Positions 6,101 to 48,608 of a stretch of DNA of 64,000 bases are shown piece after piece; the first letter of the stretch is position 1; each line of letters begins with the position of its first letter. Made by a program: the position numbers and the translations under genes. Origin of the DNA: Helicostylum pulchrum (taxonomy: Eukaryota; Mucoromycota; Mucoromycetes; Mucorales; Mucoraceae); assembly GCA_025677825.1 (NCBI GenBank), contig JAIXMO010000002.1:868001-932000 (forward strand). Direction: 5' to 3'. The notes below the pieces were generated by a model that was not told the DNA's origin, made no database searches, and saw only the letters and a list, made by a program, of their open reading frames with translations.

Positions 6101-6235
6101 ACCTGGGAATGGGGACTTTCTTTCGCACTTAGTATCGTTACAATTGGTTATGGTGAATTTTACAAGCACATGAAGAGGAAGTATTTGAAGCCAGTTGAAG
6201 CTCATGCTTTAAGCGAGTTTATTAAAATAGATTGA
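3125..6235 (+). CDS. ENA-type P-type ATPase (Na+/K+ efflux, P-type IID)
   Basis: Two exons, 3125-3704 and 3759-6235, are joined by a 54-nt GT-AG intron (phase 1), giving 1018 residues, normal for ENA pumps. The order is right for a P-type ATPase: cation-ATPase N-terminus, first membrane pair, actuator domain with TGES near residue 178, phosphorylation motif DKTGTLT near 336, nucleotide-binding domain, hinge TGDGVND near 714, then six C-terminal membrane helices. The intron joins VVLDKE to DEPLGDRINMIYSSTII, a conserved region of IID pumps, which supports the junction. In fungi these plasma- or endomembrane pumps expel Na+ (and K+) at high salt or alkaline pH. Ca2+-ATPases share the core motifs, but overall similarity, notably the segment ITWEWGLSFALSIVTIGYGE, points to the ENA group. 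Assignment comes from recalled family features, not a search. Confidence 0.93.
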
Positions 6236-22882: not shown

Positions 22883-23905
22883 ATGATACTTTCTCGATTG
22901 AATCAAACTCGCTCATTCTTTAAAAACATGATTGTAAGACCTGTTAAATGCCTCCAAGATAAGTAAGTTAAAAAAGGCAGCAGTCAAGTTGGAATAAAAG
23001 AAAAAAGTACACGCCAAAAAAGAAACTAACTCTCTCTCTTTTTTTTTACGTAGTTATTCTTATCTTATTTTTTGTGAAAAGACAAAGCAAGGCAAGTAAA
23101 CTACAAGAGTAAATATCAAAAACCCTCAGTATTTTAATTCTTTACTATAGCCGCTGCTGTCGACCCAGTTGAGCCCGAACACGTCTTTAAAGCAATGGAA
23201 TCTTACCCAGACTACAAATTATCAATGTAACCTATATTCAAAACAAGCCAATTTTTTTTTTAAAAAATTACTAATTAATAATTTTTTTTTAGGATTCTCA
23301 CTACACATCATCACTGGGATCATGCTGGCGGTAACCCAAAGCTCTTAAACGAATTACCCACCGGGATAACTTGTTATGGCGGCTCAAGCCAAGTAGACGG
23401 CGTTACCAATATTTTAAAAGGTGGTGAGACCATTCAATTAGGCGACTTGACCATCAAGGCGCTATCTACTACAGGTCATACCATGGACCATATCTGTTAC
23501 TATATCGATAAACAAGACGACCGTGCTGTCTTTACAGGCGATTGTTTATTTTCTTCAGGTTGTGGTAGATTCTTTGAAGGAACTCCAAAGGATATGTGGT
23601 CTGCATTCTCTAAACTACTTGAATTACCAAACGATACCAAAGTCTATTTCGGTCATGAATACACTATTAGTAACTTGAAGTTTGCGCAACACATTGAGCC
23701 TGACAACAAGGATATCCAAGCTAAATTGGAATGGGCTAAACAAGTTGAAATCACCACACCTTCTACCATTGAAAACGAAAAATTAACTAACCCATTTTTA
23801 CGTGTTGATTTACCTCAAGTTGCGAAATTAATTGATTCTAATCCTAATGCATCAGTTATTGATATTTTAGGTAAACTTCGTAAAATGAAGGACAATTTTA
23901 AATAG
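22883..23905 (+). CDS. Hydroxyacylglutathione hydrolase (glyoxalase II)
   Basis: Four exons (22883-22962, 23054-23091, 23151-23226, 23293-23905) give 268 residues. Introns 1 and 3 are GT-AG. Intron 2 (23092-23150) starts with GCAAGT after AG, a GC-AG intron; only this donor yields the family sequence TKQAAAVDPVEPE. The metallo-beta-lactamase signature THHHWDHAGGN opens exon 4. Further metal-ligand segments are STTGHTMDHICYY, FTGDCLFSSGCGRFFEGT and FGHEYTISN. The enzyme hydrolyses S-lactoylglutathione to lactate and glutathione, the second step of methylglyoxal removal. The first ATG (22883) adds 15 residues rich in Arg, Ser and Phe before a second ATG (22928), which begins the usual cytosolic form, MIVRPVKCLQDN. 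Mitochondrial targeting from the first start is possible. Confidence 0.93.
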
Positions 23906-23944: not shown

Positions 23945-26900
23945 TTAAGAATTATTATGTGTGGTATTTTTACTATTAGTTTTGACATTGGTATTCTTGG
24001 TGGTATTTTTAGTTGTAGGTACAGGGGTTACTTTTGTTGTTGATGTAGGAGGTGGTGTTGGTGGTGGCTTGACTCTAGTAGTAACTGGGGGGTTATTAGT
24101 AGTGGTTTCACTCTTTTCTTTTCTTCGTGCCATACGTCTTCTGGTATAATCGTTGGTATTAGCAGTGCTAGAGCTCATACTTCCACCAACATCCACGACC
24201 TTTGTCATCTTGACCTCCAATTGATTTCCATTATGATCCACCGCAATAAACTTATCACCGTCCTTGTACCCTGCCGTATTCGTACTTGCCGAACGACTAG
24301 GAGACCCAGTGGGTTGATTTGAATTACTTGATCTGCTGCTGTTTGTCGTAGTAGAAGATCTATTTTGAGGCGATACACTACGTTGCTGCTGTCGCTGTTG
24401 CTGTCTACCAAAATCTCTACGAGTTTCGATAAAACCTTCTTGAATCGTAGGTGATTTAGGCTCGTCTTCTTCAGGGATCATTTTGGTACGATTATTTCGA
24501 CGTCTTCTAGGTATAAAATCACCTTCCAATAAAGCATGATCACGTAAGAACTGAGATAACTCTGTCCAACCACCACCGACACGTACCATGACCATCTTAC
24601 TCTTCAGTACACGACAATAAGCCAATTTAGGGTTCAAATTACCGAACCAATAGCGACCTACTTCACCTGGAACCATCTTGACTTTAACACGGTAAGGAGT
24701 TTCGTTGACAATACGACCGATTTCAATATCCAAGTCATTATGAGGATCTGCAACATAAGAGTTTAAAGGAGGTTTAGGAACCGTGACCCGAGCAGCCTTT
24801 GGCTTGACATGTGTTGCTGATTTAGAAGGCTGATGCTGTAAAGGAGGTGCCAAGTATCTACCTGTGCTTCGATTGGTATTTAAACGATTGACACTGCCTT
24901 TACTGCTATTGGATGAGCTACTGGCGGTAGGAGATAACCGTTGTCTTGTTAACGAAGAATCAGCCCGATCTCTTAAAATAGAAGACGCCTTACGGGTAGG
25001 TAAAGAAGATTTACGAATACGAGCATGCTGATCATGAGGATCAACAGAGGTATCAATGGTTCGACTTAATTCGATCTTGCGAGTCTTGAACTGTTTCTTA
25101 ATCAAAGCCCATTTCCGTTCCATTTCTTTCAAATGAGTTGATACCAATTGACCTTCAGCGTCTTGTTTATCAATCACGACGGAAGCTTGTTGCTTAGCAT
25201 TAGTCATATTTTGAACAATCTTCTTTTCATAGTAATTAAATCGTGCATCCAGTTCAATTAGTTTAGCATGAAGATCTGTACGACTAAAGCTGCTGCCAAT
25301 CAACGTAGCATGATGCGGTGCAGATTTACTTAATGCTTCCTCTAAAGAGCTTTGAAGAATTTCAATATCATCAGCAAGCGTCAAATACTTTCCAATATCC
25401 ATAGCTTTATCAAGTTCGGCGTATTTAGTAGTAAACAATTGAAACAAACTATCCACTGATTCTTGCACTTCTTCGTGTTGACGAATAAACATACTATCGA
25501 TATCTTGTACTTCGGAAATCATCGTATCCAATTGTTTCATTTCGCTTTCAATTTGTGGTTTAATATCGGATTCCATTGTTTGCAAATTGCATTGAATATT
25601 CTCTACTTCAAATTGACGAAGCATAGTCAAAAGAGGCTGATTTTCTTTTACAATCTCAGGCTTCTTTTCTTCACTAGAGGACTTTCCTTCGACTTCCACT
25701 TCAATTGCAGTCTTTTCATCATCGCTAGAGGCTTGAGTATCAGAGGCTTGAGTATCTCCAACATCACTACTAGAAGTTTGAGTATCACCAATATCACTGC
25801 TGATAGAAATATCAGTAGTATGTACGCTACACGTATCATCAGAATCAAACAACTTGAACCCATTGACATACTCTCTAGTTTCACCAACCATACCCATAAT
25901 ATTCTTAATCTTTCTAGCAATAGCCGTACCGCGCGTTATCGTTTGTACCGTAGCTTCAACGTCCTTAAACTCGTCTAGAGCAGCAGCCCATTTTGCATCT
26001 ATCTCTTCCGAACTCTTCTTTACGGCTTCAACCAACTTGCTCACAACCTGATGACCACTTTGTTGAACCGACAACAAACTCTTGGAAAGTTCCTTAAACG
26101 AATCAATCACATTTTCAAATTCAACCAACTTTTGTTCTAAACTGGATAACTCAAGCGATGCTTCAGATTCATCCAAATGATCGCCCAAGACTTGAACAGT
26201 AGCTGTGTGACAGTTTTCAACCCAAGTAGAAATATTTTCAGCACTTTTGGCGTGTCCCAAGACACGACGCAACATATCGTTAGTGGATTGTTCAGTTTCA
26301 AGTGTCTTGTTAAGCGAGTTGATACTAACGCCAATAGCAGATTGAATAGAACCAGCGCGATCATCAGTACCGATATACTTTGATTGCAAAGTACTTAGCA
26401 CCTCTTGTAAAGCAGTAGCCTGAGTCAAAATCTTCTTTTGTTGAGCTTCAGTATCTGACAAGGAACTAGAAAGGGATCTAAACAATTGCTCCAAATACTT
26501 GCTTGAATTTTCCTCTACGACCAAAGTATCCAAATTTTGATTGACATCCTTGGTAACAAGTTCCACTGCATCCTGTACCTCTTGCAATTGCTTTTGACAA
26601 GCTACAAAATCAACATGCTGTTGTGCATCGTTCTTCTTTTCACTTAATAAACCAGTAGCACGTTTCAAATCATCTTGCAATTCATCATAGCGAGTTTGAA
26701 AGCAAGCCAAGTTACCATCATCGGTTAAACCAATTGCTGTATCCCAACAAGCAAAAAGGCGAGACTCCAATAACTTTAACAACGAAGCATCTTGCTCCAA
26801 AAAGCCAGGCATCACTTCCTCCATTTCCATGTTCTCCAATCTTGTAAAGATACCAGACAAGGACTCGGATTGCATTTCATTCAGTTTAGCATGAAGATCA

Positions 26901-29900
26901 AACCATTGAGAAACACTATCAGCATGTTGTTTATCATTTGTTACATCTTGCTTCAATTGTTTCCAACGTTGCTCCAAATCTTGTTGACGCGAATCGACCT
27001 GAGATAGCCCAGAAACCTTATTGAGTTGCAAGAATCGATAGAAAGAGCGCTGTTCATCATACGTTTCATGGTGCTTTTCAAACACTTCACAAAGAGTTTG
27101 ATACGATTCCGTCACTTGATCTACTGTAGCTTGATCATCTTGTACAGATTTACCATAGATGATACGACGACAAGCAGTATCCAACGCATCACGCGTCATT
27201 GCCATACACGCATCTACTTCATCAGCACCACTAAAGTAATTCTTCTTGAGTCGATCATGATTGGCATCCACGGTCTTTTCAGCCACCAAAGCTTTAAAGG
27301 TCTCGAACTCTTCCAACACAAGAGTATATCTATCCGACATCTCTTGAACCAAATCACTAGAAACATCACCTTCTTGTTTCGCCTTTTCTTCGGTCAATCG
27401 AGACTTGATTTGTTCAATAAATGTACTAGAGAGCATTTCAATATCGTTTTGCCATTGATTAGAAACATCTTCAGTCACATCTTCCAAATCCAATGCGGTA
27501 ACAGCACTTGTAAAAGACTGGCATTTTTTCTGGAAAGATTCAACGCAGACAACGTACTCTCGATGACGCAACAAACTTGACAAACGAGTTTTAGTACCGT
27601 CGATCTTTTGAACCAAGTCCTTCCAAGAAGCATTGATATTGAGTTGAGTAGCTTGAATACGAGCCAAGATGTCTTCATCATCACCCTGTTGTTGAATCAT
27701 GATGACACACTGGTTAGCCGATTCCTTTAGAGCCTGTACAGAACTTGCGTATGTCGTAGCAGCAGATTGCACAGCGCCAATAGCGTTCACAGCAACACGT
27801 AACTCTTGTACGTCTTGAGAAGAACCAGGTTCAAGATTACTCAATTGCAAAGATTTAGCTTCCATCCATTCCTTGACAGCGTTTGCTTCAGACATGTAAG
27901 TTTCTTCGGCTGCTTTACAGTGAGATAACCTTTCTTTGGATTTCAAGATGGATTCTAAAGAGCTGCCAAGTTCATCAAGACGAGATCTACGATCGTTCAA
28001 CATATCAGTCATCACGGTATTATGAGCTTCATCTTCTTCACGGCACTGAGCATCATGATCACGATAATGACGTACAGGATACGCCATGCTTGACTCCAAC
28101 TGAGATACACGTGAATTATAATCTTGTAAATCCTCTTGCTCTTGACCATATACTTTATCAGAGGCCAAGAACCCCGACTTGATAGATTCAGCCAAAGTTT
28201 CTAATTGGGATACTTTGGTTAAGCGGTGAACGATCATATCACGTTGTTCCAACACCTGGTCAACAAAATTGACATGTTCTTGTACACGATGCATAGTAGC
28301 TTCAAGACCAGCCTTTCTCTTATAGATCAATTCAGATTGTAACAATACTGGGTTCTTTGTTTGTAAGTTTGAAAGGTTCTCTAATAAACCAGACAATGCA
28401 GTGACTTGAGCATCAACAGAGGGGCCAGACTTTATATCCAAATCCAAAGAGGAAGGAGCCCAACGGGCTGAGGTTCGAATAAACGATTCGATTTCCAAAG
28501 TCTTTTCATTACAAGCCTTAAGTTCTTGATCTACTTGGGCCTCCCAATCATGACGCTGCTTCAACAGTTGAATTTCAGAGACTTGAGTAGCAACTAAATC
28601 CAGCACCTTGGCAAACAATTTATCAAGATCGTCTTGCTTTGCTTCTAACAACGTAGTATAAACCATATCACAAGACTTGTACGAAGTCATCATGTCATCA
28701 AAAGCAGTTTTCAAGGGACCGACGTTTTCTTGCAACTGATTTAAGCATGTATCGGAAACTTGAATACGCGAGATCAAAGTATCCAAGTCACCTTGCGCGG
28801 ACGAAATCCATAAATTCTTTTCGTTCATCCATTCGCGTACTTGATCTTGAATACGATTGACCTGAGACCATTGGCTGTTCCAAACCGACTCCCAGTCCAT
28901 ACGATGATGACATGCATTAGCTTGGTTTTTGAAAGACGCCACACGATTATTTAACTCTTGCCAAGAAGACTCTAACGCGATCATGGTAGCCTGGGTGACA
29001 GCAGGGTCAATCACAGATTTCACTTGGTCGTCGCTTTCAACAGCACACTTGAGTTCATCCAAATCACGTAACAAGGGTTGAAACTTTTCCGTCTTGAGTT
29101 GCGTCACATGGCCTTCAAAAGATTTTGATTTATCCAAGTACGTCCGCACATGCACCACTTGTTGTTGTGCATTTGTTGTTGACTCTACGATTCCGGTGCT
29201 TAAATCAAACGAGTAAACAGTATCAATGTCTTTTGTTAACTGTTTGACATCCTCATCAAAAGCATCCGAGTCTTTACACCAAGTTTCCAGCTTCATACGG
29301 TACACGATGGATACATCTAAGTGCTGTAATAAATCCGACATTCGCTTCACCAAGTCTTGTAACTCGGTGTAGTTTTTAAAGATAATAGTGGCTACTTCGG
29401 TACTGATTTCATCATCGTTGGTGGAGGGACGCGTAGCACGTGCGTCCTCGGGGCATTGTGGGTAGGGTAATTGAGACCCGCATTGCATCCACACTTGAAT
29501 CACGTCTTGACTGAATTCTTTCACGCTCGATACAAAGTGTTCACGACGTGCATCCATATCGATCAGCTTCATGACGGTATCGTTTGCTTCTTGAATATCG
29601 GAAATCAATTGACGCCCGGTATCGCCCAAGGTAGATACTTGCGCAGAGAAACGGGTAAGTGCAGTATGTTGTTGCAATACGTCTTTACTAAACTCGATTA
29701 AATCACATAAGTTATGGTAGCTTTGATCCAAAGTATCCTGACGACGTTGTACATGCTCTGGTGTAATGTTATCCTGTGCTTGATTGGTATCAATATCTAA
29801 TTTATTATTTTAGATTAGTTTTTTTTTATATATATAATCAAACAAACAAATAAATAAAAACTTACTGGCACTGCTTAAAATAATAAGAAATCCATTTGCT

Positions 29901-32614
29901 AGTTCCGTAAAGGTTTGATCGACCGGTTTTAATTGATCATGATAAAACTCTTGTACTTTTGTTTGCATCAAATCAAACTCCAATTGAATACTTTGACGAT
30001 CCAAATCCAGTTCCATATCCGATCTCCATTGAGCTTTACGCGAGATAAACTCCCAGACGGAAAAAGTCATGTTTGAAATCCACAGTGTTGTCTTGGCATG
30101 TTGAGTTTCCCAAGAGATACGTTTTCCAAGTATATCCAGGCACAGGCTGTGAACCTGTAAAGCGTCATTCAATACTACCAGTTGATCTTCCAGCCCGACC
30201 ATATCTTCATTTAACGTACCGACCAAAGCCGCCGTATTTACATTCGTAGGTGGTTGAGCAGAAGCAGTTTGTAATCCTTGAATATTATCCGACAGCTTTT
30301 TGATATCGTTTTCTTTGATCCCCTTCATTTTGGCCACTTGTCCATCGCGCTCTTTATTTAACCGCGCAAGATCTGTTTCATCAAGAGCACATTTACCCAC
30401 AAACACATCTACCTTGGATTTTTTAATCGACCGCATTCTTTCATCTACCCAGCTTTGTAAACGGACAATTTCATCTTGCAGTTGTTTAGCTCGTTTTTGA
30501 AGTTGCAAAGCACGGCGATAAGAACCAAGGCTGTGATCTAAAGCTTCACCGAATAAAACAAGCGCGGATTTTCTGGCACCAATCACCATACGGATCACTT
30601 CGTTTGCATCATCGTTGCCTTGTTCGTCGGTAGGATGTGAAGCTTCAGGGTAAGGTACACGCGAAGCAACACTAGTAACAAGTCGAACCGCGTTTTCTTG
30701 AAACAAAGATACCTTTTCACTGAAATCCGTATTACCACCAGTAGTAGACTGAGCACCGTGCTGCTCAGCAGCTAAAGTAATATCCTGACGTAAACTATCA
30801 CCCTCATATTTCAGTTTATCAGCACGATCCAAAAAGTCCGTTACCACCAGGTACTGTTCGACGACTTGACGAGCAAACGAGATACGGTTTGTTAATTCTT
30901 CAAAGGCTTCTTCAATGGCTACTTGCCTAGACTCTAAATGAGAAGGTAACTCAATATTACACGCATCATCTAAATCTTGATACATATTGACAGTAGCTGT
31001 AAATTGACCTTGATCAAATACCGAGGATTGTTTTTCAAAATCAATCAAACTATTAATGATTTCGTTTTTCTCCAGCAACTTCTTTTCTTCGGAATCATCA
31101 TCATCTACAGTAGTAGTAGGAGGTCTCCAACGAGCCTTTTGTTGGACGAACAAACGAACGTTTTCACCTGTAGTACGTACCCAGGTAACAGACATATCGT
31201 ATTCTTTTTCCCAGTACATGCGTAAAGTTAACATTTGAAGTTCATACGAATGCCTACGTAACAGATGCATTAAACGATCTAAAGTCATTAAAGTAGTAAA
31301 GGTGATTTCGATAGTAGTTGTATCTGCCGGTGAAAGATCTTTATTACCACCAGTTAAGGCCTTGACATGAGCTCTTAACCGTGTCATATCTTCCTTATCA
31401 AACACTTCGACTTGTCGTTCCAACCCTTGCTGTTCCATATTCAACTGATCGATTGATAAAACTTCGTAATCCAGCTCGACTTCCTCCAAGGCGTTCATAT
31501 TGGGCTTAGCCTCTAGTAAATGAATCCTTTGCTCGATCCAAGAGCGAATTCTTTCAGCCTCAACAAACCAAACACGTACATCATCTACCCACGAGCAAAT
31601 CAAGTCGTACTTGTCACGCAAGAAAGAGTACTCTTGTAAACAAACAGTATCAGAACCAAACAACTCCTTAAATTTATAGCCTAAATGACCAATGGCTGTA
31701 CCGGCTGCCTTTGATCTGGACTCTAAATCTTGAATACCGACGTCTGTGGTTGTAGTCTTTAACATCTTTGCTTGGATGAACTCAAGTTCGTTACGAATAG
31801 ACGCGGCGGAACTGGTGAACTGGATTGTGGTACGCAACATATCACCCTTATGCAACTGCAAATGAAGTGCAGCATGTGTTGCATCAATAGCAGAGATACG
31901 CACTGCAAGATTTGGGTGTGATTTTAAACAAGTAGGTAAACTATCTATACATTGCTTTAAATGACTTAGGTCTCGAGACTCCAAGGTACGTAAAGCGACC
32001 AAGATTTCGTCCAGTGTCATACAGGGTATATCCTCCAAGGGCCTGTTCTTGATGGCTAAGTCAGTAGTTGTAGTCGTCAATAAGAGTTCGTCTACGGTGT
32101 TGGTGATGTGTGGAGATGGTGACCTTGTAGAGGTCGAGAGACCTTCCCGTATTGATAAATCGACCAATTGGTGAAATAATCTATTTAATGATACCATGAC
32201 TAGATTTAATTGTTTATCGACCATTTGATCAGGTAAGTCGGTGCTGCCGATATGTAAATCACGTAAAGTATCTTCGGTCGGTAATTGTTGATTTTCTACA
32301 ATAGCCGCTTCAATATCCTTCAAGTAACCTATCCAGGTTGTAGCTGGTAACACTTTAAGGTGTTGTTCAAATATATTGTAACTTGTCGTCAAGTGTTGTG
32401 ATGTTGAAGGACTTTCAAGTTGGTCAATGAGGTCGGGTAAAGCGTCTGGGAAAAAGTGATGTGCTAAGCATAGTAAGGCTTTCGGCCGCCATGTGTCTTC
32501 TTCTTCTTCTATCGATACATTGCTCATGGCTGGAATTAAGAGAAGTTCAGTGTAAAGTAACAACTCTTTTTGCAACCATGCCAGCACAGTTGAGGATATT
32601 GAGCAACTTGACAT
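23945..32614 (-). CDS. Giant CH-like / spectrin-like / GAS2 (GAR) domain protein, spectraplakin-like layout
   Basis: Two exons, 32614-29866 and 29796-23945, with a 69-nt GT-AG intron (phase 1), give 2866 residues. Residues about 5-110 resemble one calponin-homology domain (VLAWLQKELLLYTELLLI, then WRPKALLCLAHHFFPDALPD). Residues about 120-2500 are almost wholly helical with spectrin-repeat-like helices that start with Trp, for example LQSWVDERM, IRSWIEQRIHLLEAKP and REWMNEKNLW. An acidic Ser/Thr-rich insert lies near 2240-2305. A basic Ser-rich linker near 2515 holds SSLPTRK, resembling the SxIP/SxLP plus-end-binding motif. Residues about 2600-2680 are a GAS2-related domain (IGRIVNETPYRVKVKMVPGE, GRYWFGN, MVRVGGGWTELSQFLRDH). 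The tail is basic and Ser/Thr/Pro-rich. GAR domains bind microtubules and CH domains often bind actin, so a cytoskeletal crosslinker is inferred. Actin binding by a single divergent CH is uncertain. Confidence 0.88.
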
Positions 32615-33974
32615 GATTTTTTTTTATCTTCTTATATTCGTATTATAATCTTTGTCAAGAAGAAAGGAAAAAAAAAAGAAAAGATATATATATACAAGAA
32701 AAAAAAAAAGGAAAAAAAAAAAAGAGATAAAAGAGGGGGCGAAAAAGGAGAATGAAACGAGGGGTGTTATGGTGTAAACAACAAAAAGCAAGTTACTGGT
32801 CGAAATCTTATTTCTATTCGCCTCACGAAAAAGAGGGTTTTTTTTATATGTATAGAATATAAATGGAATATAATTGTTGTCAATTTTCCTTTTACATGAG
32901 AAGGCGTCAAGGTAAAATTCCCAAATATATTGACACTGCGCATCAAACCTAAAAAAGGCAGGGCCTTTACAGCTTATCTTGCAACCGATTTAGAAGGGGA
33001 GAAGCTCGCTTTTTTTTCTTTAAAACACCAGAGTTATACGCCAAAAAAAAACCCCCCACCACCACCATCACCACTGCCGCTGCCGCCAAATTACTCCTCT
33101 TTGTCGCAAAATCGAGAATCGATCACTATGCTTGTTTCTTTCATCACGCTCTAAACGTGTCTATTGTAATCTAACGTTTAACCATCAATCGCAAAAATAA
33201 GACCTAATAAAGAACGCCACATCAATTAACCTTTTTTTAATGAACCTAATATATAATGACAAACAACAACGAACTGTTAAAGAGAAAAATCTTTACGTTA
33301 GTTTTTCTTAAAAGAGAAAAAGAGGACTCTCTCTCTAACTAAGAACCATTTCTCTCTTTATATTCTTGTTAGATGAAAATAACCTTTTACTATCAGCAAT
33401 AACCTGAGGTTTAAAAAAGAGTGCCTTTCCTTTTTTATCAATGCGATTATTATCAAAAAGACAAAGGTATACTTGTTAGTTGTGATAGAAAAGCTGCAAT
33501 ATATCTTTTAAGTAAATATAACTGCATATCGCGTTCAATCTAGCCATTTTAGATGTATACGAGACTTGTTAATCGATAGCTAAAAAGTTAAAATTAATTT
33601 TGCTGTCATTATGTAGTTCCTACGAAACACCTAAAAATTACAAAAATTGTGATTTAACGTCCCCTCTTTAATAAACCTACTAACATATCGGCTGTAGCCT
33701 GTACCTCTCTATCTAACGATTGGCATCGATTTAATTCTTTACACGTGGAGTTTGTCTATATTTTATAATTAAAAAATGGCTACTTATGCACATTGCACAC
33801 ACAAAGCAAGCTAATTAAAACGATGCTTTTTTTTTCATTACGTCCCTTTTACTCCATCAATTACAATTTAAACTAACTTTATAAGACACGTCAAATACAA
33901 AATATTCTTTAAAAAAAAAGATTTTTCTTTATTAGAAAAAAAAAAATTGTCAATTAATCTTTAAAAAGGTTAAT
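32615..33974. other. Intergenic region between the giant gene and uS17
   Basis: About 1.36 kb. The left end should hold the giant gene's promoter, with poly-purine A/G runs (the complement of T/C runs). A CCACCACCACC-type stretch near 33050-33090 is low complexity. No supported gene is seen. Confidence 0.4.
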
Positions 33975-34816
33975 TTAGAACTTGCTGAAGGACTTGGAAG
34001 CACCCTTAGCCTTGGAGACCTTGAGGACGTTGAAACGAACGGTCTTGGAAAGAGGACGACATTGACCAATGGTAACAAGGTCACCACTATTAAGAGGAAA
34101 AAAGTTAGTTAAAACTGGATTTCAAAGGCTTGGTGGAGCCGCTACCTCACCAACTACCTCATCCGTCAAAATAATATAATCTCTTTTTTTTTGCTTTTAC
34201 AAGAGATCATTGTATTTTAGAAAGAAAAAAAAAAGAAAAGAAAAAAGCAGAAAAAAATAGCTTTTTTTTTTCCCAAGTAGAAATAAAATCTTTTTTTTTT
34301 CCTTTTTTTTTTTTTTTTTGCACTCCCATCAAGAAAAACAAAAAGAAAAAGATATTTTTTTTTGAACGAACAAAAAGTAGCGATAGGGTATAAAAAAAAA
34401 GACTGGTACTTACGCTTCAATAGCAGCAGACTCGAAAGCGGGAGAAACATGAGCAGAGATGTTCTTGTGACGCTTTTCGTAACGGTTGTACTTGGGAATG
34501 TAATGAAGATAATCACGACGAACGACGAGAGTACGCTTCATCTTGGTGGAGGTGACAATACCAGTAAGGATACGACCTTGGATGTTAACCTCACCGACGA
34601 AAGGACACTTCTTATCGATATAAGTACCGGTCTTGGCTTCCTTGGGGGTCTTGAAACCGTAACCGACTTCCTTGAACCAACGTTGGTTACGCTTCTTGGC
34701 GTCCTTGGAGTTTTGGAAAATACCAGCTTGCTTTTGGAAAGCCTTCTCGGTCTATTATAATTTTTGTTAGTGCATGTCTTTCAACATATTACGTATATAC
34801 ATACTTGGTGTTCCAT
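33975..34816 (-). CDS. RPS11: 40S ribosomal protein uS17 (S11)
   Basis: Three exons (34816-34805, 34751-34414, 34086-33975) give 153 residues. Exon 1 encodes only MEHQ. Exon 2 begins [13 protein letters not shown] and holds the uS17 core [20 protein letters not shown]; exon 3 ends [20 protein letters not shown] and a Lys/Ser-rich tail. Intron 2 is about 330 nt, long for this window, and A/T-run-rich; intron 1 is 53 nt. The protein binds 18S rRNA in the small subunit. Codon use is strongly biased (AAG, GTC, GGT, CGT), as expected for a highly expressed gene and unlike most neighbours. Identification is secure. Confidence 0.96.
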
Positions 34817-35059
34817 TTTTAATAAAGAATATTTAGAGGAGGAGCAAAATCAACTTCCAAACTTAAATCCTGGTATTTATTTCTTTTTTCAAAAATAAAA
34901 ATTTTTATTACCTGCAGTCACAAAACCCTTTTTATTGGATACACTTATTTCAAGCCACCTACACATACACCACACATATACACATATAGTGAAAAATATT
35001 ACAGGTCAAAAATACAGGTCAAAATTACACTTAAAAAAAAAAAAAACTTTATTTCTCCC

Positions 35060-35980
35060 CTAATTAACGCGGTTCGATTTATGTTGAATTGAACTTAATA
35101 ATTGTACTCTAAATTTAGGTGGAACTAAATCACTTATTCTATGTAACGTTTCCACCATATCTATCGCTTTATCAAATCCACGCAAGTCACATAAGGTAGT
35201 GACAAGGATACTGACGATAGCATAATCTGCAGGAACGTCATTCTGGTTCATTTCATCTAGATACGCCATTAGCCTTGGTATATCCTTCCGCCTTGACGCA
35301 TCCTTTATTAAGATGCCATAGGTCACCACTGTCGGTTTTGTATTTTTATAAACTTCTTGCAACATTGCCTGTGCACTTTCCAAACGCCCTTGTCTTAGCA
35401 GTGTTTTAATCAATGTATTGTACATGACGATATTGGTGCCTGTGTAAAACTGATTGATTTCTTTACAGAGATGGGTAATGGTACGCATATCTACGGGTCT
35501 TGTATTATTGACAATCAAATTAATCAACATGGTATACATGTAAATCATGGCTCGTGCGCTTCGTTTCGATGGTGGGTTTTGGCGATAGTATGAAATAAGG
35601 GTATCATGAACAGCATACATGCCTACTAAATTATTCGACTTATATAATGCTCGTGTTAATTGATAAAGTGCTTCTCGGCTCGGAAATCCTTCTTCTTCTA
35701 ATAGTTTTAAATATATAGCCAGGGCTTCATTCGATCTTCCAAGTAAAGAAAGTTTGTAAATCGCTATGGAAGGTTCTGCAGGTCGTGCATTCACATGTGT
35801 ATTGCTGTATTTTTTCACTGTTGTTAATTCCGCTAAATGACTGTGATAACGTTGTTGTTGTTGGTGAAATACATTTTGAAACTTGCCACATCCCACACAC
35901 GCTGTAATACTCTTTCGTTGCACGCTTAGTGTAGGTATTATACTAGATATAAATATGTTGAGAACGCGAGCATACCGCAT
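35060..35980 (-). CDS. Pentatricopeptide-repeat protein, probably mitochondrial
   Basis: A single exon of 306 residues from ATG 35980. A longer in-frame start at 36067 would add a hydrophobic, poly-Lys leader and is less likely. Residues about 1-55 lack acidic residues and are rich in Arg, Ser and Gln, fitting a mitochondrial presequence. From about residue 70 the chain shows helix-turn-helix repeats of PPR type, for example NIVMYNTLIKTLLRQGRLES and TVVTYGILIKDASRRKDI. PPR proteins bind organellar RNA and act in its processing, stability or translation. The RNA target cannot be read from the sequence. Three or four clear repeats and several weak ones are visible. Confidence 0.85.
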   Translation of the reverse strand: MRYARVLNIFISSIIPTLSVQRKSITACVGCGKFQNVFHQQQQRYHSHLAELTTVKKYSNTHVNARPAEPSIAIYKLSLLGRSNEALAIYLKLLEEEGFPSREALYQLTRALYKSNNLVGMYAVHDTLISYYRQNPPSKRSARAMIYMYTMLINLIVNNTRPVDMRTITHLCKEINQFYTGTNIVMYNTLIKTLLRQGRLESAQAMLQEVYKNTKPTVVTYGILIKDASRRKDIPRLMAYLDEMNQNDVPADYAIVSILVTTLCDLRGFDKAIDMVETLHRISDLVPPKFRVQLLSSIQHKSNRVN

Positions 35981-36170
35981 GCCATCTATTTTTTTTTTTT
36001 TGGTGTTTAAAAAAAAAAGAAGAAAGAAAATTATACACACTACACACACACACAAAAGGGGATCCATGCTTTTTGTTGTCAGGCAGGAAATAAAAAAAAA
36101 AAGAAAAAAGAAAGTAACCCAAATAAGGAAACTGAGATAATTTATATGTGACGTGAAAATTTTAATTATT

Positions 36171-36485
36171 TTATATCATACAACTGGAAACTTCACAGGT
36201 ACCGATTAGCCTTTCATCTCTTGTTCTGTAACTAACTAACCAATTACCATTAGGTAGCCTTTGGTACAAGTTTGAGTAAACGTTGGGATGATGTGATGCG
36301 ATTGAGATTGTATCACTATCGTCAGGTAAGAACAATGTACTTGAAAGACTAGTGCTATCAGTATCATTATAAATAGAAGGACAAATGATGGTATCTTGAT
36401 CATCTTGTTGTGGTTGCTTTTCCTTCTTCTTTTTTGATAGTAAAGAACTACTGATAATACTTTTTAAATGTTTAATATGTACCAT
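36171..36485 (-). CDS. Small unknown protein, 104 residues
   Basis: ATG 36485 opens an uninterrupted frame. The N-terminal 25 residues are basic (HIKHLKSIISSSLLSKKKKE). The middle is Ser/Thr/Asp-rich. The C-terminus, YQRLPNGNWLVSYRTRDERL, looks like a short folded motif. No family is recognised. It sits between the PPR gene and MKT1, all on the minus strand. Composition and natural-looking C-terminal sequence argue for a real gene, but its length makes this uncertain. Confidence 0.5.
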   Translation of the reverse strand: MVHIKHLKSIISSSLLSKKKKEKQPQQDDQDTIICPSIYNDTDSTSLSSTLFLPDDSDTISIASHHPNVYSNLYQRLPNGNWLVSYRTRDERLIGTCEVSSCMI

Positions 36486-36732
36486 TATTTTAACTGCTTG
36501 AAAGAAAAAAAGGGAAAAAGAAAAGACAAAAAAAAAAAAAAAAAAAAAAAAGATATTTATATCAAAGGTAAGTAACTTGGATGCAACCTTACAAAATTGT
36601 ACATTTGAATTTCGGCAAGTAGTAGCAGTATATATTTTAATTACACCTAATGATAAAAAAAAAAGATCCTCGGTTTATTATTATTACAAAAAAACGTACG
36701 CTTTTTTCTGGTTTTTTTTTTTTTTTTTTTAC

Positions 36733-39365
36733 TTAAAACTTGTTTTGGTTAAGCCATTGATTAGCGTCAGCAAACATACCAAAAGTACTAGCAGTAACAG
36801 ATTGAGACTTTTCAAGTGATTCAACTGCTTTGAATAACTGTAGCCAGAACTCAAAACCCTTTTGCAAATCAGATTTTACACTTATGCAAGTTGGGAAAGC
36901 CTTTTCCGTACTAGACAATGCTTCTACAGGAGATTGACCTTCTACAATTCTTTCCAAGTAATGTTTACATACAAGGCCTAAAGCTACATTTGGATCAGCC
37001 AAGTAAGGAAGACTAAGGCAAGGGAATTAATTAAAAAAAAAAAAAAGTAAACAAATAAACAAATCCTTTCTGTTACCTGTCAGCAATTTGATAATAGTCA
37101 TTACGTTCCTTCTTTACCAAGTTATTCAAAAATAATGATAAAGTCAACATTTCACACAGGTTTCGATAACTGCGATTTAAAGCCTTGACAAAACTGTTAA
37201 AGACAAGTAAATCCCTATTTAAAGGACCAGACCAAGGAGAACTCTTCAAGTTCATAGGTAGTAATGATAATGCACGAGAAAGTAATATGATATTTTTCTT
37301 TTGGAATTCTATAGAAAAAAGTAAATAAATCAGTACATACACACACATATAAAATTCTTTTGTTTACCATCACCAAGAGGTTGAGAATAAGTTTTACTGT
37401 ATTCCTTATTTGTTAATACTTCAAATCGAATTAATTCAAGTGCGGTTAATAAAGATTCCGGTTGTTGTGTAATTGCCGATGATGATTTTAATGCTGTAGA
37501 GAGAGCTTGTCCCCAAGGAGTATAAATATGCTTTGAACAACTCAAGAAATCTCTAATCTCTAACGTCTTCCACAACACGTTTGCTACAATTTGATTCTTT
37601 TCGACCAAGACATGTTGCTCTTGTGAGATCGTTTTACTGGCTTTACTTTCACTTTCGACCGATTGGATACAAAATTTGATATCAATGTCGTTTACTTTTT
37701 GTGTGTGTAATTCTTGTTCGATGAATTCTTTGGGTACGTTCCATGAACTTGTTTTTTCATATATGGTGTTCAAGGATGTGCAATCGGTTCGGTTCTCTGT
37801 GGTGGGTTGATGACGCATGATTTGCTCTTCGTTGGGTTCAAACCAAAAGTAACTACTGACTTTACGCGTCTTATAAAATGGATGGAGTGGTTGGGTTAAT
37901 AAACTTAATGTCTGTGTGCGAATATTAAGTAACTGAGTCAAGAAATTATGGTACTCAATTGATTCTCCATTATCTAAAGGTGCACTCTCAATTAATACGC
38001 CAGATACCAAACTATTGACAGACTATAAACAACATGTTATTAACATTATCAACTACAACAACAACAACAAAAAACCCTTTTTTTTTTTTACCTGAGGTCC
38101 AATTAACCCACGCATCAAATAATAATAAACTTCGTCTGGTAAACGATATCCAATAAACTCATGAATATCATTAGGTGCATTTTCAACATTCATTGGCTTG
38201 ACTTCTCCTTCCTCGTTAATAACTAAATGGTATTTTACTGCACAACGTGTACGACAAAACGTATCAATATAATTAGTCTTTGCAACCACAATATTATCCG
38301 AATAAGCTTGAACCGCATTAAATCCTGTCTTGTGTTGTTTAATTAAATCGTGCACACCTTCAGAAAAAAATTATAAGTTTACTCCCTCTTTTTTTTTTTT
38401 ATTTCATTATGTGCTTACCGTTAAATGTGAAACTGACTTGTGAAGTATTAAGTGGAGGAAAAGTAGGGCAGTATTCAAACCCGGCTAATATACAGATATC
38501 TAAAAACTGTTCGTCGGATACATGCAAGTCTTGAAGCACAGTTCTTTTACTAACCCAATGATAATTTCCTTTTTCTAAATCAATTGTTGTAATCATCTTG
38601 TCAATATCCCACATTAGTAACTCCGAACCACCACAAACTGCATTCACAAGTTGTCTAGGATGATTATACATAAAAGCAAGCTATTTTGTTTAAAAAAGGG
38701 CGGAGGGAATGATTCAGTAACACACAACCAAGAAAAAAATATTTTTTTTTTACCTGTGCCCAGGCAGAATAGGGTGCGCGAATAAACTCAACATTATTCT
38801 TATTCAAGATATGAATAACCGTGTTAAGTAATTCAGCAGAGTTAATACCAGAACTGCTTGCCCAATTACTTAAAGCCAAGTCAACTTTCCCTCTATCGTA
38901 AAAGTCCCACCCAGCAGCGCGATGACTAGGACGAGAATCTTCTGTTGAAAACGGTTTGTCTTTACGAATAATAGATAATCCAGAAAACACAAAGATGGGT
39001 TGAATTCCAACAGACCTATAAACGCGAAATATGTGTAAGGAGGAGGTTCATCATTTAACAATAAAAAAAAAGGCTTTACTTGTATCCTTTCAATTCTCTT
39101 TCAATAGTTTCTACTAGTCGAAGTGGTAATCCTCCCATGGCAGTTACTGCATTTTCTTTAGCAACTACTTTACGTAACCAATAATTTCCATCGATTCCTA
39201 ATCTAGTTTCTTTTAATTGAGAAACTGCAGATGTTTGAATCAAGCGACGCTCCGCCGTAAATACTTTTTTTTAAAAAAAACCAAAAAGTTTTAGTCTTTT
39301 AATACATGAAAAAGTTCCAAAATAAAACAGAACGTTAGTTTACTATCAAAGTGACGAATAGGCAT
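36733..39365 (-). CDS. MKT1: Mkt1-like post-transcriptional regulator (XPG-like fold)
   Basis: Eight exons (39365-39344, 39263-39080, 39015-38754, 38680-38419, 38357-38092, 38022-37368, 37308-37077, 37012-36733) give 720 residues; every intron is GT-AG with consistent phase. Exon 1 encodes MPIRHFD. Exons 2-4 form the XPG N/I-like part: RLGIDGNYWLRKVV, GIQPIFVFSGLSI, VEFIRAPYSAWAQLA and FLDICILAGFEYCPTFPPL. Exon 5 has the Mkt1 segment DIHEFIGYRLPDEVYYYLMR. Exons 6-8 carry the C-terminal domain, with NLLTQP-like TLSLLTQPLHPFY and SSPWSGPLNRDLL. Yeast Mkt1 acts with Pbp1 on polysome-associated mRNAs; that function is inferred. XPG catalytic acidic residues are not fully evident, as usual in this family. 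Confidence 0.92.
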
Positions 39366-39501
39366 TTTTTTGGTTTTTTTTGCTGCTTTCTTGATAGATG
39401 TTTTTCGTATTTCCTACTTGTTTTTTTAAAAAAAAAATTAGCGTAAAGACAAGAGAGAGAAGAGCAGCAGAACAAGCCGGACATTAAAATACAGGTTTAT
39501 T

Positions 39502-39585
39502 TTATTTTAAATTTACAGTGGTACAAGCAGCAGATAAGTTTTGATTGTTAAAGAGTCTTTGACGTCTTTGACGTCTTTGAACCAT
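39502..39585 (-). CDS. Candidate 27-residue microprotein with TATA box
   Basis: ATG 39585 opens a frame for a basic peptide starting MVQRRQRRQRLFNNQ and ending at a TAA followed by AATAAA. TTTATAAAAG (on the minus strand, about 39617-39626) lies about 35 bases upstream, a good core-promoter distance. The start includes a 9-bp direct repeat (GTCTTTGAC on the plus strand, three times). No family is recognised. It may be a real short transcript or chance. Confidence 0.25.
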   Translation of the reverse strand: MVQRRQRRQRLFNNQNLSAACTTVNLK

Positions 39586-42500
39586 AGTGTAGTAACAAAA
39601 AGAATTGAAAATTGGTCTTTTATAAAGCATTCTATTTTTTATCTTTTTGTTCGGATGTACGCATACAAATCTTGACTTGGCTAATTTCAAACGAGCATCT
39701 TCTCACCCAATAACTCATGCGAAAAGCTTCGGATTAGGGCACATCAGTATCAGAGTTCAGATAACTTCTAAGCGTGATTTTTTTTTTTTTCTCTTGCTCA
39801 AATAAAATTTTCAGCAGGTTTATGGACTAACGGTATATAGACATTCTATCTTGTGGTTTTCCAGATACTACTACATGATTGGAGCTCGGTTGCTCTTAAA
39901 ATTGAAAGAAAAAAGACCTGTTTGGTGTATTTTGTACGTCGAACAAGTCGTATATTCATTGAGGTCTGGAGTATATAGCCTTCAACAACTTGTTTTGGCC
40001 CTGTACGTGCGCTTTTTCTAAATAAGTATTATACAACTGTTTAACTAGACGGTATCAAGATATTGTTGGTACTTGCATTGGGCTCTAAACAGAGTTTTTA
40101 AATTGCTCTTGGTAAAAAGAGAAAGTCTGAATTGATTCTTCCCTAAAGATATATGAGTTTCCACATTTCTTTTGTTAGGTTTATTTCCAACAGTCAAAAA
40201 AAAAGGGGGGGGGGGGGCTCTCGGTTTTGTGAAATAGGATTACATTCGTATTTAAAATAGTCGTAATAACGATGTTAAAAGGAGAAGGGATGGAACAGGT
40301 TATCAAGAATTCCGCTCTACTGTACTTTCTTGCTTTGTGATAAGGATGTATGTGGGTTTTTGTTTCGTCTTTAACACAGTATTTTGTTTTTTGATTGCTT
40401 TATCAGCTTAGTTTTTCTTTGAAATACTTTTTCGTACCTTTTGTTTTCCTTCTTCTTCGAATTTCCTTTATCATAAAGATGACTTCTTTCGCGGATTTAT
40501 TGGTATATATTACACCATGAACTCATTGCCGGTTTTCTACTCCCAGTTTTCGTTTAATATGTCCCAACTCTCCCGTCACCCGAGTACAGACTATTAATTA
40601 TTATCTGGAAAGTGCTAGAAACAAAAAGGCAGAATAATTCATATAAGGTAATAGTTAAGCTCCTTTAAAAAGATGCAGGTAATGGGTTAGAATACTTTAT
40701 TTCTAGCACTAAAAAAAGTATCAAAGAGGGTGTAAGCTAATTATAGCTTTAAAAAAAAAGTTCCTTAGCATATGAGTCATTACAACAAAACTCGGAACTC
40801 AGTTTTTTTTTTAAAAAAAAAAGAGCTTGTCAACTTGTGATAAATAACGCATTAGTGTGGGGAGAATAATATACTTTATTTTTTTTCAACCGTGGCAGAT
40901 ACCAAGTTGTACTCCTTAGTCAGCAAGTCGTTGTCAATATGTTTATAATTAACCTTATAGTCATTATTGTAGTCTCGAGACAGAGAAAAAAAAAATTAGG
41001 ATAGAATCACTGACAGCACAAAAAAAGACGTCCCCTTTTGCTGTAAACTCTTTTTTAATACACTTTGTAGTTTATATTGGGTTAAATGATTTTTTTTTTC
41101 TGTTATCAAGTTACCTGGTATGTAGGCACTTGATACATAAATTAATTGAAAGAAAACTTTTCTATTAAGCCCTTAAAAAAAAAGTTTAAAAAGTCAAAGA
41201 AGGCTCGACTTATTCTACCGTCCAGCATATGCATACATAAAATGATTATAATCAAGTAGAACATGTAAATCACCTGTACGGAACGTGTTTATCTCATCAT
41301 AGAAGTTGTATTTATTGAAACATTTTTCGACAGCTGATGCAAAGTATACTTTTTATGCGAACTTCTTTTCCGTTACATTAGTCAACGTTTTTTTTTTTTT
41401 TTAAAAAACGAGAAGAATGTTTTTTTTTTTAAAAACCAATTGAATTTTTGACAAATAACAAAAATGGAATTTTTTTTTCTAAAAAAAAACCTTCTTTTGT
41501 TTATTACTGCTACTATAACATTGTAAGGGGATATTAGTGTAACATGTGTGGGTAAAGAAACTGATCAGAAATCGCATGCAAGTTTTTAATGGTCCAAAAA
41601 AGCATCGGGATACTCCAAATACAATAATATGCATATTTTAAAAAAGTAAAATTACCAACTAATAACGCCAAGAAGATAATAACTACAATAAAAGACTTTT
41701 TTGTTTTGTTTTCAATGTAGTACTGACGATAAAAGGACACACTAGCACCGGTCTTTACTTTATTTCGGTTAAATCTCTACACCCAAAAACAAATAAATTA
41801 AACGTTCAAGGTATACGCTGCCAACTTTAAGATGATACAATAAGCGATCCGATCTACGCGTAAAAAAATCCTCCCAACGTTTTCCTTTACGTTACCATAT
41901 ATATACTTTCCGTATTAGATTAATCCTTTATCTTTTTCCCACATTTGACGTGAAGTTACCAATAGATGAAAGCACTCTTATCAAGAGGCGACAATAAAGG
42001 TTTTTTTTTTTTTTAAGCCATCAAACATATAAATATTTATATAGTCCTTATGACGCAAGAAAAAACAAGTTTCTCGCACACAAAAACTAAATTGTAAATA
42101 GTCTCTCTTTTTGATAAATTATAATAGACCAAATTGGTCGAGAACGTTTTGCAAAAACGAGGGGGTTGCGTATATATCATAAAAACAACCGGAAAGGAAG
42201 GCAAATACAAAATTTATTCTTTTCCACATATCAAATGCATTATTCGAAAAATGCCAGAAATGTACTTGGTTTTTTAAAAGAAAATACTCGAGGTAAATAA
42301 ACAAGAAATACTATATCTGACCATTTGACCGGAATAAGGACTTCAATGCAAACAAAATATATACAACAGATGTTCAATCTATGATGTGATTCTTGTACAA
42401 TTTTTTTTTTTTTTTTAGATGCGATGGACCTTGATAAAACAACACTATTTCTATTCAATTAACAAAACATCAATGGTTTACCGTCGATATAAAAAAAGTA

Positions 42501-46653: not shown

Positions 46654-48608
46654 ATGTCTTCTAGCAGTAGCAATGAGCCTGATGAACAACAACACAGACA
46701 GACAGGTGAAAAACCTGTAACAACAAAAGATATTGCCAATTTGTATTCTCATTTACAAACCATGATTGATAATGTTCCTAAAACTTCACGTACTGAACCA
46801 GATGGAACAAGTGGTAGTAGTGCTGCTTCAACCGATCATTGGCATTCTTCGTTTCCTATTACACCTACAGTTTCTTCGAATTTGTTACTAAGCAGTAAAA
46901 GTTTACCTTTACCCCCATCACGCACCATGTCGGCACCAAAGGAACCTGATTGTCCTTGTCATCATATACTTGTATCAAAGGATTCAAAACACTGTGCGCT
47001 CTGTGACGACATTGTACCTATTCTTTCTGAGCTTCAACAAGAGAGGCAACAAAAGCGAGAAGAGATGAAAGAGTATAAGAATTCACTTTCACTGGAACGA
47101 GAACACGCTAAAGGATTTGAACAAGAGTTGGCAAAGGTGAAACAGCAGACCAAGGAGCTGACCACCAAATTGGAGACGACGACAAATCAATATCATTCGT
47201 TACAAAAGGATATTTCAGTTTTAAATCAAAAATATAAAAATGAACAAGTAGAAACAGAGAAAGCGAAACAGGCTAAAAAGGAATTGGAAAATGAATTGGA
47301 AGAACTTTCTCAAAAGTTATTTGAAGAAGCCAATGGTATGGTTGCGAATGAAAAGCGAGAAAAGCATCAAATCCAAGTTCAATATAAACACTTGCAGCAA
47401 GAATTAAAGAACTGTAAGGAACAGTTGGAAGCAGATGAAGCACAATTAAGAGAGTTGAAATTAAAGATGGGAGATATGGAGGATCAGCGTAAAAAAGAGA
47501 ATAGAATAAGTGCACTTTCTGGTCTATATAGTAATCATAATAATAGTAGTAGTAGCTGTCAAGATCAACACCAATTATCAGTACAAGAAGAAAACGATGA
47601 AGCTGAACGAAGAGCTTCTCGTGATTTAGCTAGTCTATTTACACAAGAAGAATACCCAGAACAACAAATTGATCCAATTGTATTAAATGAATTTGACGAA
47701 TTTGTTAAAATGGAGAACACTGTACCTATTAGAAAATTACACACGATTCCATACATGAAGAACAGTTTAATCGAAGATGTGGAACCATGTCTTAGATTTG
47801 GACCCAGCTCCAGATTGTCTGCCAGAAAATTAGTGGAAGCAATTGTTCTTAATACATGTTTTATTGAAGAATCTCCGTTTGGATTCTCGCAGGAACAAGC
47901 AAAGAGACCATTTGATGTGCCATTAAAGATATCCGCTGCTAAAAATATGATTTGGGAAAGGCTATCAAGTACCCCTACAGCACCATTTGCTGGATGTCAA
48001 GCATGTGGTCGTAATAATAATAACAATAATAATGACCTTCCATATAGGTTCCGTATCTCCGTGCTTGATGACTGGGCCTGTATTGATCGATATTGCAGAG
48101 ATAGGTTGGTTGCTGTGTGTGAATTTTATTTATTTATTCGAAACATCCGTCAAGGTTATTATAATGGTCGAACTATACCCGCTTTATATCATGAATCGAC
48201 TAGATTAAAACTTCAAATGTTCTATGCAAGGTAAGGTTACTTTTTTTTGCAAAAGAAGAAGAAAAAAAGAAAAAAAAAGAATCTTTTTTTTTTAATAGTG
48301 GGTGGTACACTAAACTCTATTTTATTTGTTATAGAATGGGGACCTTGTCGCAAACATTACAAAATATTGGGGTAAAAGGAGATGTAGTTGGTCAAGCGTC
48401 AGCACCAAATATGATTATTCCACCTCCATCGCCACCAATTATTGTTACAACAGATGCTTCAGAACAAAATGAACAAGACCAAGATGATAAATGTAGTGTG
48501 TCTTCAAATGAAGATGATGAGTATTTTCAGGATGATGTAATTGAGAAGCCACGTAGAACATCAACACATCCCGGTAACTCGGTTTGGGTTGCGCATTCGT
48601 TTTTATAA
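46654..48608 (+). CDS. Sec2/Rabin-like Rab guanine-nucleotide exchange factor
   Basis: Exons 46654-48230 and 48335-48608 joined by a 104-nt GT-AG intron (phase 2) give 616 residues. Residues about 125-285 form a long coiled coil whose core, ELENELEELSQKLFEEANGM, is the Sec2 exchange domain that contacts the Sec4/Rab8 GTPase. Before it lies a Cys/His cluster, CPCHHILVSKDSKHCALC, near residues 99-117, possibly metal-binding. Residues about 345-520 are a C-terminal folded region seen in Sec2/Rabin8 relatives (FDEFVKMENTVPIRKLHT, WACIDRYCRDRLVAVCEFY). The tail is Pro- and acid-rich. Sec2 proteins activate the secretory Rab on vesicles bound for the growing tip. That role is inferred. Confidence 0.88.

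Follow-up and report, generated by a model that had tools for sequence, protein, structure and literature searches.

A stretch of 64,000 nucleotides from Helicostylum pulchrum (contig JAIXMO010000002.1, positions 868,001 to 932,000; hereafter the window) carries on its minus strand, from 32614 to 23945, a gene with a single 69-bp intron and a 2866-residue product. Along this product a calponin-homology (CH) domain, a spectrin-like rod, a basic linker with an SxLP motif, a GAS2 domain and a basic tail follow one another (Table 1). Sequence profiles and AlphaFold models suggest that it is likely a giant spectraplakin-like cytoskeletal tether of Mucorales, bound to microtubules at one end and anchored at the cortex. 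Furthermore, profile comparisons point to an apparent common ancestry of the rod end and Kar9, which in yeast guides microtubules along actin cables, and we propose a shared origin for Kar9 and the fungal spectraplakin-like proteins.

Domain order and the microtubule end

A first-pass annotation, made from the sequence alone, had described a 2866-residue product with CH-like domain, spectrin-like rod and GAS2 domain in the order of a spectraplakin. The length was confirmed by the gene model and by an annotated protein of equal length, HPULCUR_003840 of H. pulchrum (P0026), which is the nearest named protein, differs from the window protein at 14 positions and is recorded as a hypothetical, GAR-domain-containing protein. 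The order proved real as well, in profiles, in AlphaFold models and, for GAS2, in Pfam; a CH fold and spectrin-type helices were both present in models and profiles, contrary to the refuting outcomes that the first-pass annotation had named. Pfam itself gave a divided answer, with PF02187 found, the rod scored weakly and the CH domain recovered by profiles and model instead.

Table 1 Features of the rod gene and its product, with positions in the window
Feature	Residues	Position	Strand	Basis
Exon 1	1-915 and first base of codon 916	29866..32614	-	Open frame, GT donor after 29866, annotated protein equally long
Intron, 69 bp, GTAAGT...TTAG		29797..29865	-	Removal leaves one frame of 2866 codons
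Exon 2, including stop codon		23945..29796	-	
Single CH2-type CH domain	~4-110	32285..32605	-	
Spectrin-like rod	~200-2500	25046..32017	-	AlphaFold models of 1-915 and 1986-2866, structure matches, PDB profile search
First rod block	~270-600	30815..31807	-	Both non-GAS2 conservation peaks
Super-repeat unit 1, ~380 residues	446-825	30140..31279	-	HHalign self-comparison alone
Super-repeat unit 2, across the intron	~813-1208	28922..30178	-	HHalign, 99.4-100% by slice to unit 1
Super-repeat unit 3	~1312-1688	27482..28612	-	HHalign, 97.9-99.6% by slice to unit 1
Kar9-homologous rod end and linker start	~2049-2545	24911..26401	-	HHalign
SxLP motif S-S-L-P, within RIRKSSLPTRKAS	2513-2516	24998..25009	-	Basic Ser-rich linker before GAS2
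GAS2/GAR domain	~2606-2670	24536..24733	-	Pfam PF02187, E 1.3e-12; own-genome search, 53.7 bits
Tail motif GYKDGDKFIAVDHNGNQLEVKMTKV, after GAS2	2759-2783	24197..24271	-	Family consensus

For the rod, AlphaFold models and profile comparisons support a spectrin fold. As unrelated helical chains reached E 4.3e-6 in the PDB profile search, only its far stronger spectrin rows were counted. The rod would comprise roughly 20 three-helix repeats, a number obtained by extrapolation because the AlphaFold models cover residues 1-915 and 1986-2866; a segment within it (2236-2302) is modelled as disordered. HHalign self-comparison indicates that the rod is partly assembled from three super-repeats of ~380 residues.

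The microtubule end of the protein is well supported. The GAS2 domain was aligned by phmmer to solved GAS2 and MACF1 chains, and its mean column entropy, calculated per stretch over 30 unweighted sequences (as are all entropies below), was 0.68-0.73 bits. According to PMC12084551, mutation of any of five GAS2 residues (R242, R252, G255, W257 and K266) reduces microtubule binding; the first four are conserved as R2645, R2655, G2658 and W2660, with positions counted on the phmmer alignment.

Of 16 window-group proteins sampled, 15 hold S/TxLP in the linker before GAS2, against 3.6 expected from shuffling; all seven Absidia-type proteins do so too (1.7 expected), and a longer form, RKxS[LI]PTRK, occurs in 44 of 51 window-side rows; no S/TxLP was found in the linkers of 19 group B proteins. 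S/TxLP and SxIP motifs of GAS2-like proteins are reported to bind EB proteins (PMC4058111), and the genome itself holds two EB1-domain matches. After GAS2, a loose pattern of the tail motif fits 70 of 111 tails, and AlphaFold shows a low-confidence beta hairpin there. By analogy, this motif may be the counterpart of the C-terminal region of animal GAS2, because that region is required for GAS2 dimerisation (PMC12084551).

The rod end and Kar9

The Kar9 link, which was absent from the first-pass annotation, came from HHalign comparison of the rod end with Kar9-GAS2 proteins (99.6%, E 8e-23, 388 columns). The Kar9 domain of the genome's Kar9-type proteins aligned over its full length with the final ~500 residues of the rod, while ten column shuffles gave at most 0.2%. 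Two other GAS2 genes of the genome, C121 and C168, are Kar9 homologs, and C121 matches PF08580 at 2.5e-17; the window protein had no direct match to this Pfam KAR9 family at E up to 1. KAR9 and GAS2 domains occurred together in 88 of 116 retrieved Mucoromycota relatives. The retrieved Kar9 proteins measured 474-1185 residues, had no CH domain reported and lacked a long rod; like the window protein, they combine the homologous domain with a Ser-rich linker bearing an EB-type motif, although this is SxIP in the Kar9-type proteins (20 of 20 sampled, 5.6 expected) and S/TxLP in the window group. The Kar9 structure 7ag9 was among the structure matches but did not discriminate in favour of the Kar9 link, and it was not listed by PDB phmmer with C121 at E up to 1.

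The match could instead reflect nothing beyond the three-helix spectrin fold that both share. We consider this very unlikely, given that 14 slices from elsewhere in the same rod reached at most 42.3%, against 90.9-98.8% for four slices of the end and the score for the whole rod end given above. Likewise, the best-scoring place in groups B, A and Umbelopsis was the end adjoining GAS2 (73.1, 91.8 and 92.7%, in gapped alignments), and in both the giant rods and the Kar9-type proteins a Ser-rich linker and then a GAS2 domain follow. We lean, with reasonable though not high confidence, towards Kar9 as a shortened relative of the fungal spectraplakin-like proteins. It would have retained the EB-binding linker together with the rod end, and in Mucoromycota also GAS2, while its CH domains and long rod disappeared; the window gene would represent a branch without CH1. 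In PMC9859758, Kar9 is called a functional homologue of MACF among +TIP families "of diverse phylogenetic origins", and its N domain is assigned self-association and Myo2 binding. If the descent is shared, spindle guidance by Kar9 in yeast and guidance by animal spectraplakins would be comparable by ancestry, and fungal Kar9 and the giant rods would form one microtubule-to-actin guide family whose parallels with animal spectraplakins stem from descent and not from function alone. Mucorales, which combine tandem-CH rods, CH1-less rods and Kar9-GAS2 proteins, would be a place to test this. As a side observation, C121 and C168 each adjoin a gene that we take to be pyruvate-carboxylase-like, which hints at duplication of a larger segment.

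The amino-terminal domain and the opposite end

The CH call stands despite the empty Pfam scan, because profiles and the AlphaFold model settled the question: the model of residues 1-915, structure matches and profile comparison all support a CH fold at the N-terminus. The structure rows listed were the CH2 domains of actinin, spectrin, utrophin and MACF1 and the lone CH domains of smoothelin and EHBP1, the latter being the top single match in structure comparison. A PDB profile search returned the same CH2 company together with MICAL and NEDD9-interacting CH domains; its alignment mixed groups, tandem-CH proteins included, so this match adds no separate evidence for the window's own group. 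With exon 1 as query, PDB phmmer gave a beta-spectrin CH domain at E 0.55 as sole match, and Foldseek with the 915-residue model gave nothing at E up to 0.001. Taken by themselves, the Pfam and phmmer results would have spoken against a CH domain. The group CH model was detected in 33 of 34 window-group proteins. A CH1 model, which recovered every held-out CH1 at E < 1e-42, found none in 41 related proteins (best E 0.03), namely these 34 and seven Absidia-type proteins that lie outside the 55-row window side of the tree described below. A candidate CH1 exon hidden upstream (32615-40000) was rejected at a best E of 1.8.

These results bear on the actin-microtubule crosslinking that the first-pass annotation had proposed. 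A true crosslinker, with the CH domain binding F-actin directly and the GAS2 end binding microtubules, would agree with retention of the CH domain across the group, with the likeness to EHBP1, described as actin-binding (PMC7442826), and with F-actin binding by the lone CH3 of GAS2 (PMC12084551). The window domain, however, is of CH2 type rather than CH1 and probably not CH3, no CH1 was found in the related proteins or upstream, and F-actin binding ~1000-fold weaker than that of CH1 alone or of the CH1-CH2 pair is reported for a single utrophin CH2 (PMC7240100). The lone CH2 could still bind F-actin directly, but this is less likely, and a crosslinker of this kind seems unlikely; the microtubule half of the proposal held up, and the actin half, a single diverged CH2, came out weak.

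Alternatively, both ends might sit on microtubules and bundle or space them without actin, with EB1 as the precedent for a lone CH domain on tubulin. Lone CH domains of the EB type are microtubule binders (PMC7240100, PMC12084551), and such a scaffold would suit a protein with a strong GAS2 match and no CH1. We regard it as quite unlikely, since the window CH domain clusters, in sequence and structure alike, with the CH2 domains found in actin-binding proteins; no EB-type CH was among the 50 structure entries listed, an observation that is not exclusionary.

Besides the GAS2 end, the molecule has another end under strong constraint, formed by the peaks of the first rod block rather than by the CH domain. 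Besides GAS2, the strongest conservation lies at residues 421-480 (0.79 bits) and 541-600 (0.83 bits), the remainder of 241-660 having 1.2-1.9 and the positions around and between the peaks 1.5-1.9. The CH region averaged 1.57 over its first 60 residues and 2.34 over the other half, the middle rod mostly 2.0-2.65 and residues 2401-2580 1.45-1.63. Eight residues (W342, W349, E352, L413, H416, V417, L420 and T421) were invariant in 35 rows. The CH1-less group offers a natural experiment, with rod and microtubule end kept and the main actin-binding half missing, and the conserved first rod block is for that reason a candidate cortical or actin attachment. The same peaks would favour a spectrin-like cortical scaffold, in which CH2 and the first rod block take membrane or endocytic proteins as partners and the microtubule end only parks microtubules at the cortex; so would the likeness to the CH domain of EHBP1, an endosome adaptor (PMC7442826). 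With no membrane-binding domain in the Pfam scan, this account is possible but rather unlikely.

For the tether that we prefer, the GAS2 domain would hold the microtubule lattice, and the SxLP motif with the basic linker would bring in EB1-type proteins and through them the growing microtubule ends. A spectrin repeat is about 5 nm long, and with ~20 repeats the rod could serve as a long spacer that keeps the two ends of the order of 100 nm apart. The end opposite to GAS2 would attach to the cortex or to actin mainly through something other than the weak CH2, with the strongly conserved first rod block, partners, or pairing with the tandem-CH paralog as candidates. The Kar9-homologous rod end may give self-association, as in Kar9.

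Several observations weigh against this tether. Besides the extrapolated rod length, literature searches yielded no biochemical or localisation data for any family member, Pfam found no CH domain in the window protein at E up to 1, and the lone CH2 might fail to bind actin at all. The first rod block is distinct only at its peaks, because the entropy of the first 60 CH residues equals that of the block's flanks. At the microtubule end, GAS2 K266 faces D2669, with R2668 adjacent, AlphaFold confidence is 62-78 at 2626-2675 and below 40 immediately before, and SxIP in the window group (3 of 19, 2.1 expected) showed no enrichment. In addition, the C-x-C pair of animal GAS2, which occurs in 7 of 121 fungal GAS2 domains examined, faces non-cysteine residues here. 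The zinc-binding residues of the GAR fold are assigned to cysteines, and with the pair absent the fold may therefore be stabilised differently.

Relatives, known systems and the locus

Searches of the organism's own genome (32.2 Mb, 168 contigs) gave six GAS2 places. The complete layout is found in C106 (3079 residues in our gene model), with CH1 (Pfam 1.5e-12), CH2 (9.2e-18), rod and GAS2. Its tandem CH matched alpha-actinin (129 bits), beta-spectrin (116), dystrophin (106), plectin (99) and MACF1 (92.5) in the PDB, and that of P0136 from Jimgerdemannia, another complete tandem-CH form, matched beta-spectrin (147), actinin (135), dystrophin (118) and MACF1 (108.5). The complete form thus exists, yet its actin-binding domain scores alpha-actinin and beta-spectrin above MACF1. 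In the C88 group, CH1 is degenerate (HHalign 91.4% to CH1, 0.4% to CH2) and a CH2 is present (99.2%). Contig ends interrupt two further rod genes, C95 with rod and GAS2 and C153 with CH and rod; C153:1-2500 and C95:1-8600 are probably two genes, because the query parts that they cover overlap.

A FastTree phylogeny was built from 125 C-terminal regions, taken from the members of a 141-protein set that carry the RVGGGW motif, with four from this genome added. In it the window side, with 55 rows, stood apart from the C88 group, and both from the tandem-CH group. The tree is unrooted, joins long branches (own_c106, own_c95 and P0139) and serves grouping only. Stepwise loss of CH1 is the simplest reading, the tree being too rough for direction. 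The survey of relatives covered the best 120 of 223 proteins and scored only the candidates sharing most words, so absence outside Mucoromycota does not follow from it; the named organisms listed are, as we recognise them, Mucoromycota in the wide sense, save for a mis-filed Paenibacillus metagenome-assembled genome. The protein filed there, P0002, has 90% identity to the first 500 residues of the window protein and probably comes from a fungal contig binned with a bacterium. Another relative, P0034 of Mucor velutinosus, is a rod-GAS2 protein of 2803 residues whose name, glutamine synthetase, was probably assigned in error.

Fungal proteins with CH domain, spectrin repeats (SR) and GAS2 were published in 2022, so the kind is not new, and the window protein is a variant of it. 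Paradzik et al. (PMC9145010) described such CH/SR/GAS2 forms in Fungi, proposed them as intermediates towards spectraplakins and argued for an origin at the opisthokont base. Compared by description, the covered sections of that paper mention neither a form with CH2 alone nor a link to Kar9, and the terms 'mucor' and 'rhizopus' have no match in its main text.

The first-pass annotation had called the order the hallmark of animal spectraplakins (MACF1, dystonin, Shot), and the order is indeed common to them and the window protein; several other features of theirs were not recovered. Animal spectraplakins have tandem CH1-CH2 where the window protein has a single diverged CH2. An EF-hand pair lies directly before GAS2 in animal spectraplakins, but Pfam gave no EF-hand in the window protein at E up to 1 and none in scans of relatives, and AlphaFold models the stretch before GAS2 as disordered. 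For the plakin domain and SH3 insert, Pfam gave no SH3 up to the same threshold and the model of 1-915 is all helices; plectin repeats were also not found. The GAR-fold cysteines of spectraplakins include the C-x-C pair absent here, and their EB-type motif is placed after GAS2, the SxLP of the window protein before it. As tandem CH, plakin/SH3 and EF-hand were looked for and not found, we do not class the protein as a spectraplakin, although its sequence suggests that it may work like one at the microtubule end.

Among other known systems, GAS2 and G2L1-3 also have one CH domain, one GAS2 domain and an S/TxLP or SxIP motif, but GAS2 has a CH3-type domain with a short hinge linker to GAR (PMC12084551), in contrast to the apparent CH2 type and the rod of >2000 residues between the two domains here. 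The combination of CH2 and spectrin repeats is shared with alpha-actinin and beta-spectrin. To our knowledge, neither of these has a GAS2 domain.

As for the surroundings of the gene, the last exon of a hydroxyacylglutathione hydrolase gene (23447-23905, plus strand; HAGH_C E 7.3e-26) is convergent with the rod gene, their 3' ends lying ~40 bp apart. A Sec2p/Rabin8-type Rab exchange factor (46654-48234, plus strand; Sec2p E 1.5e-23) lies ~14 kb from it. Elsewhere in the window are a BAR_4 domain protein (881-1903, minus strand), a P-type cation ATPase (3728-6235, plus strand), a PPR protein (35063-36067, minus strand) and a DEAD-box helicase fragment (51216-51932, minus strand).

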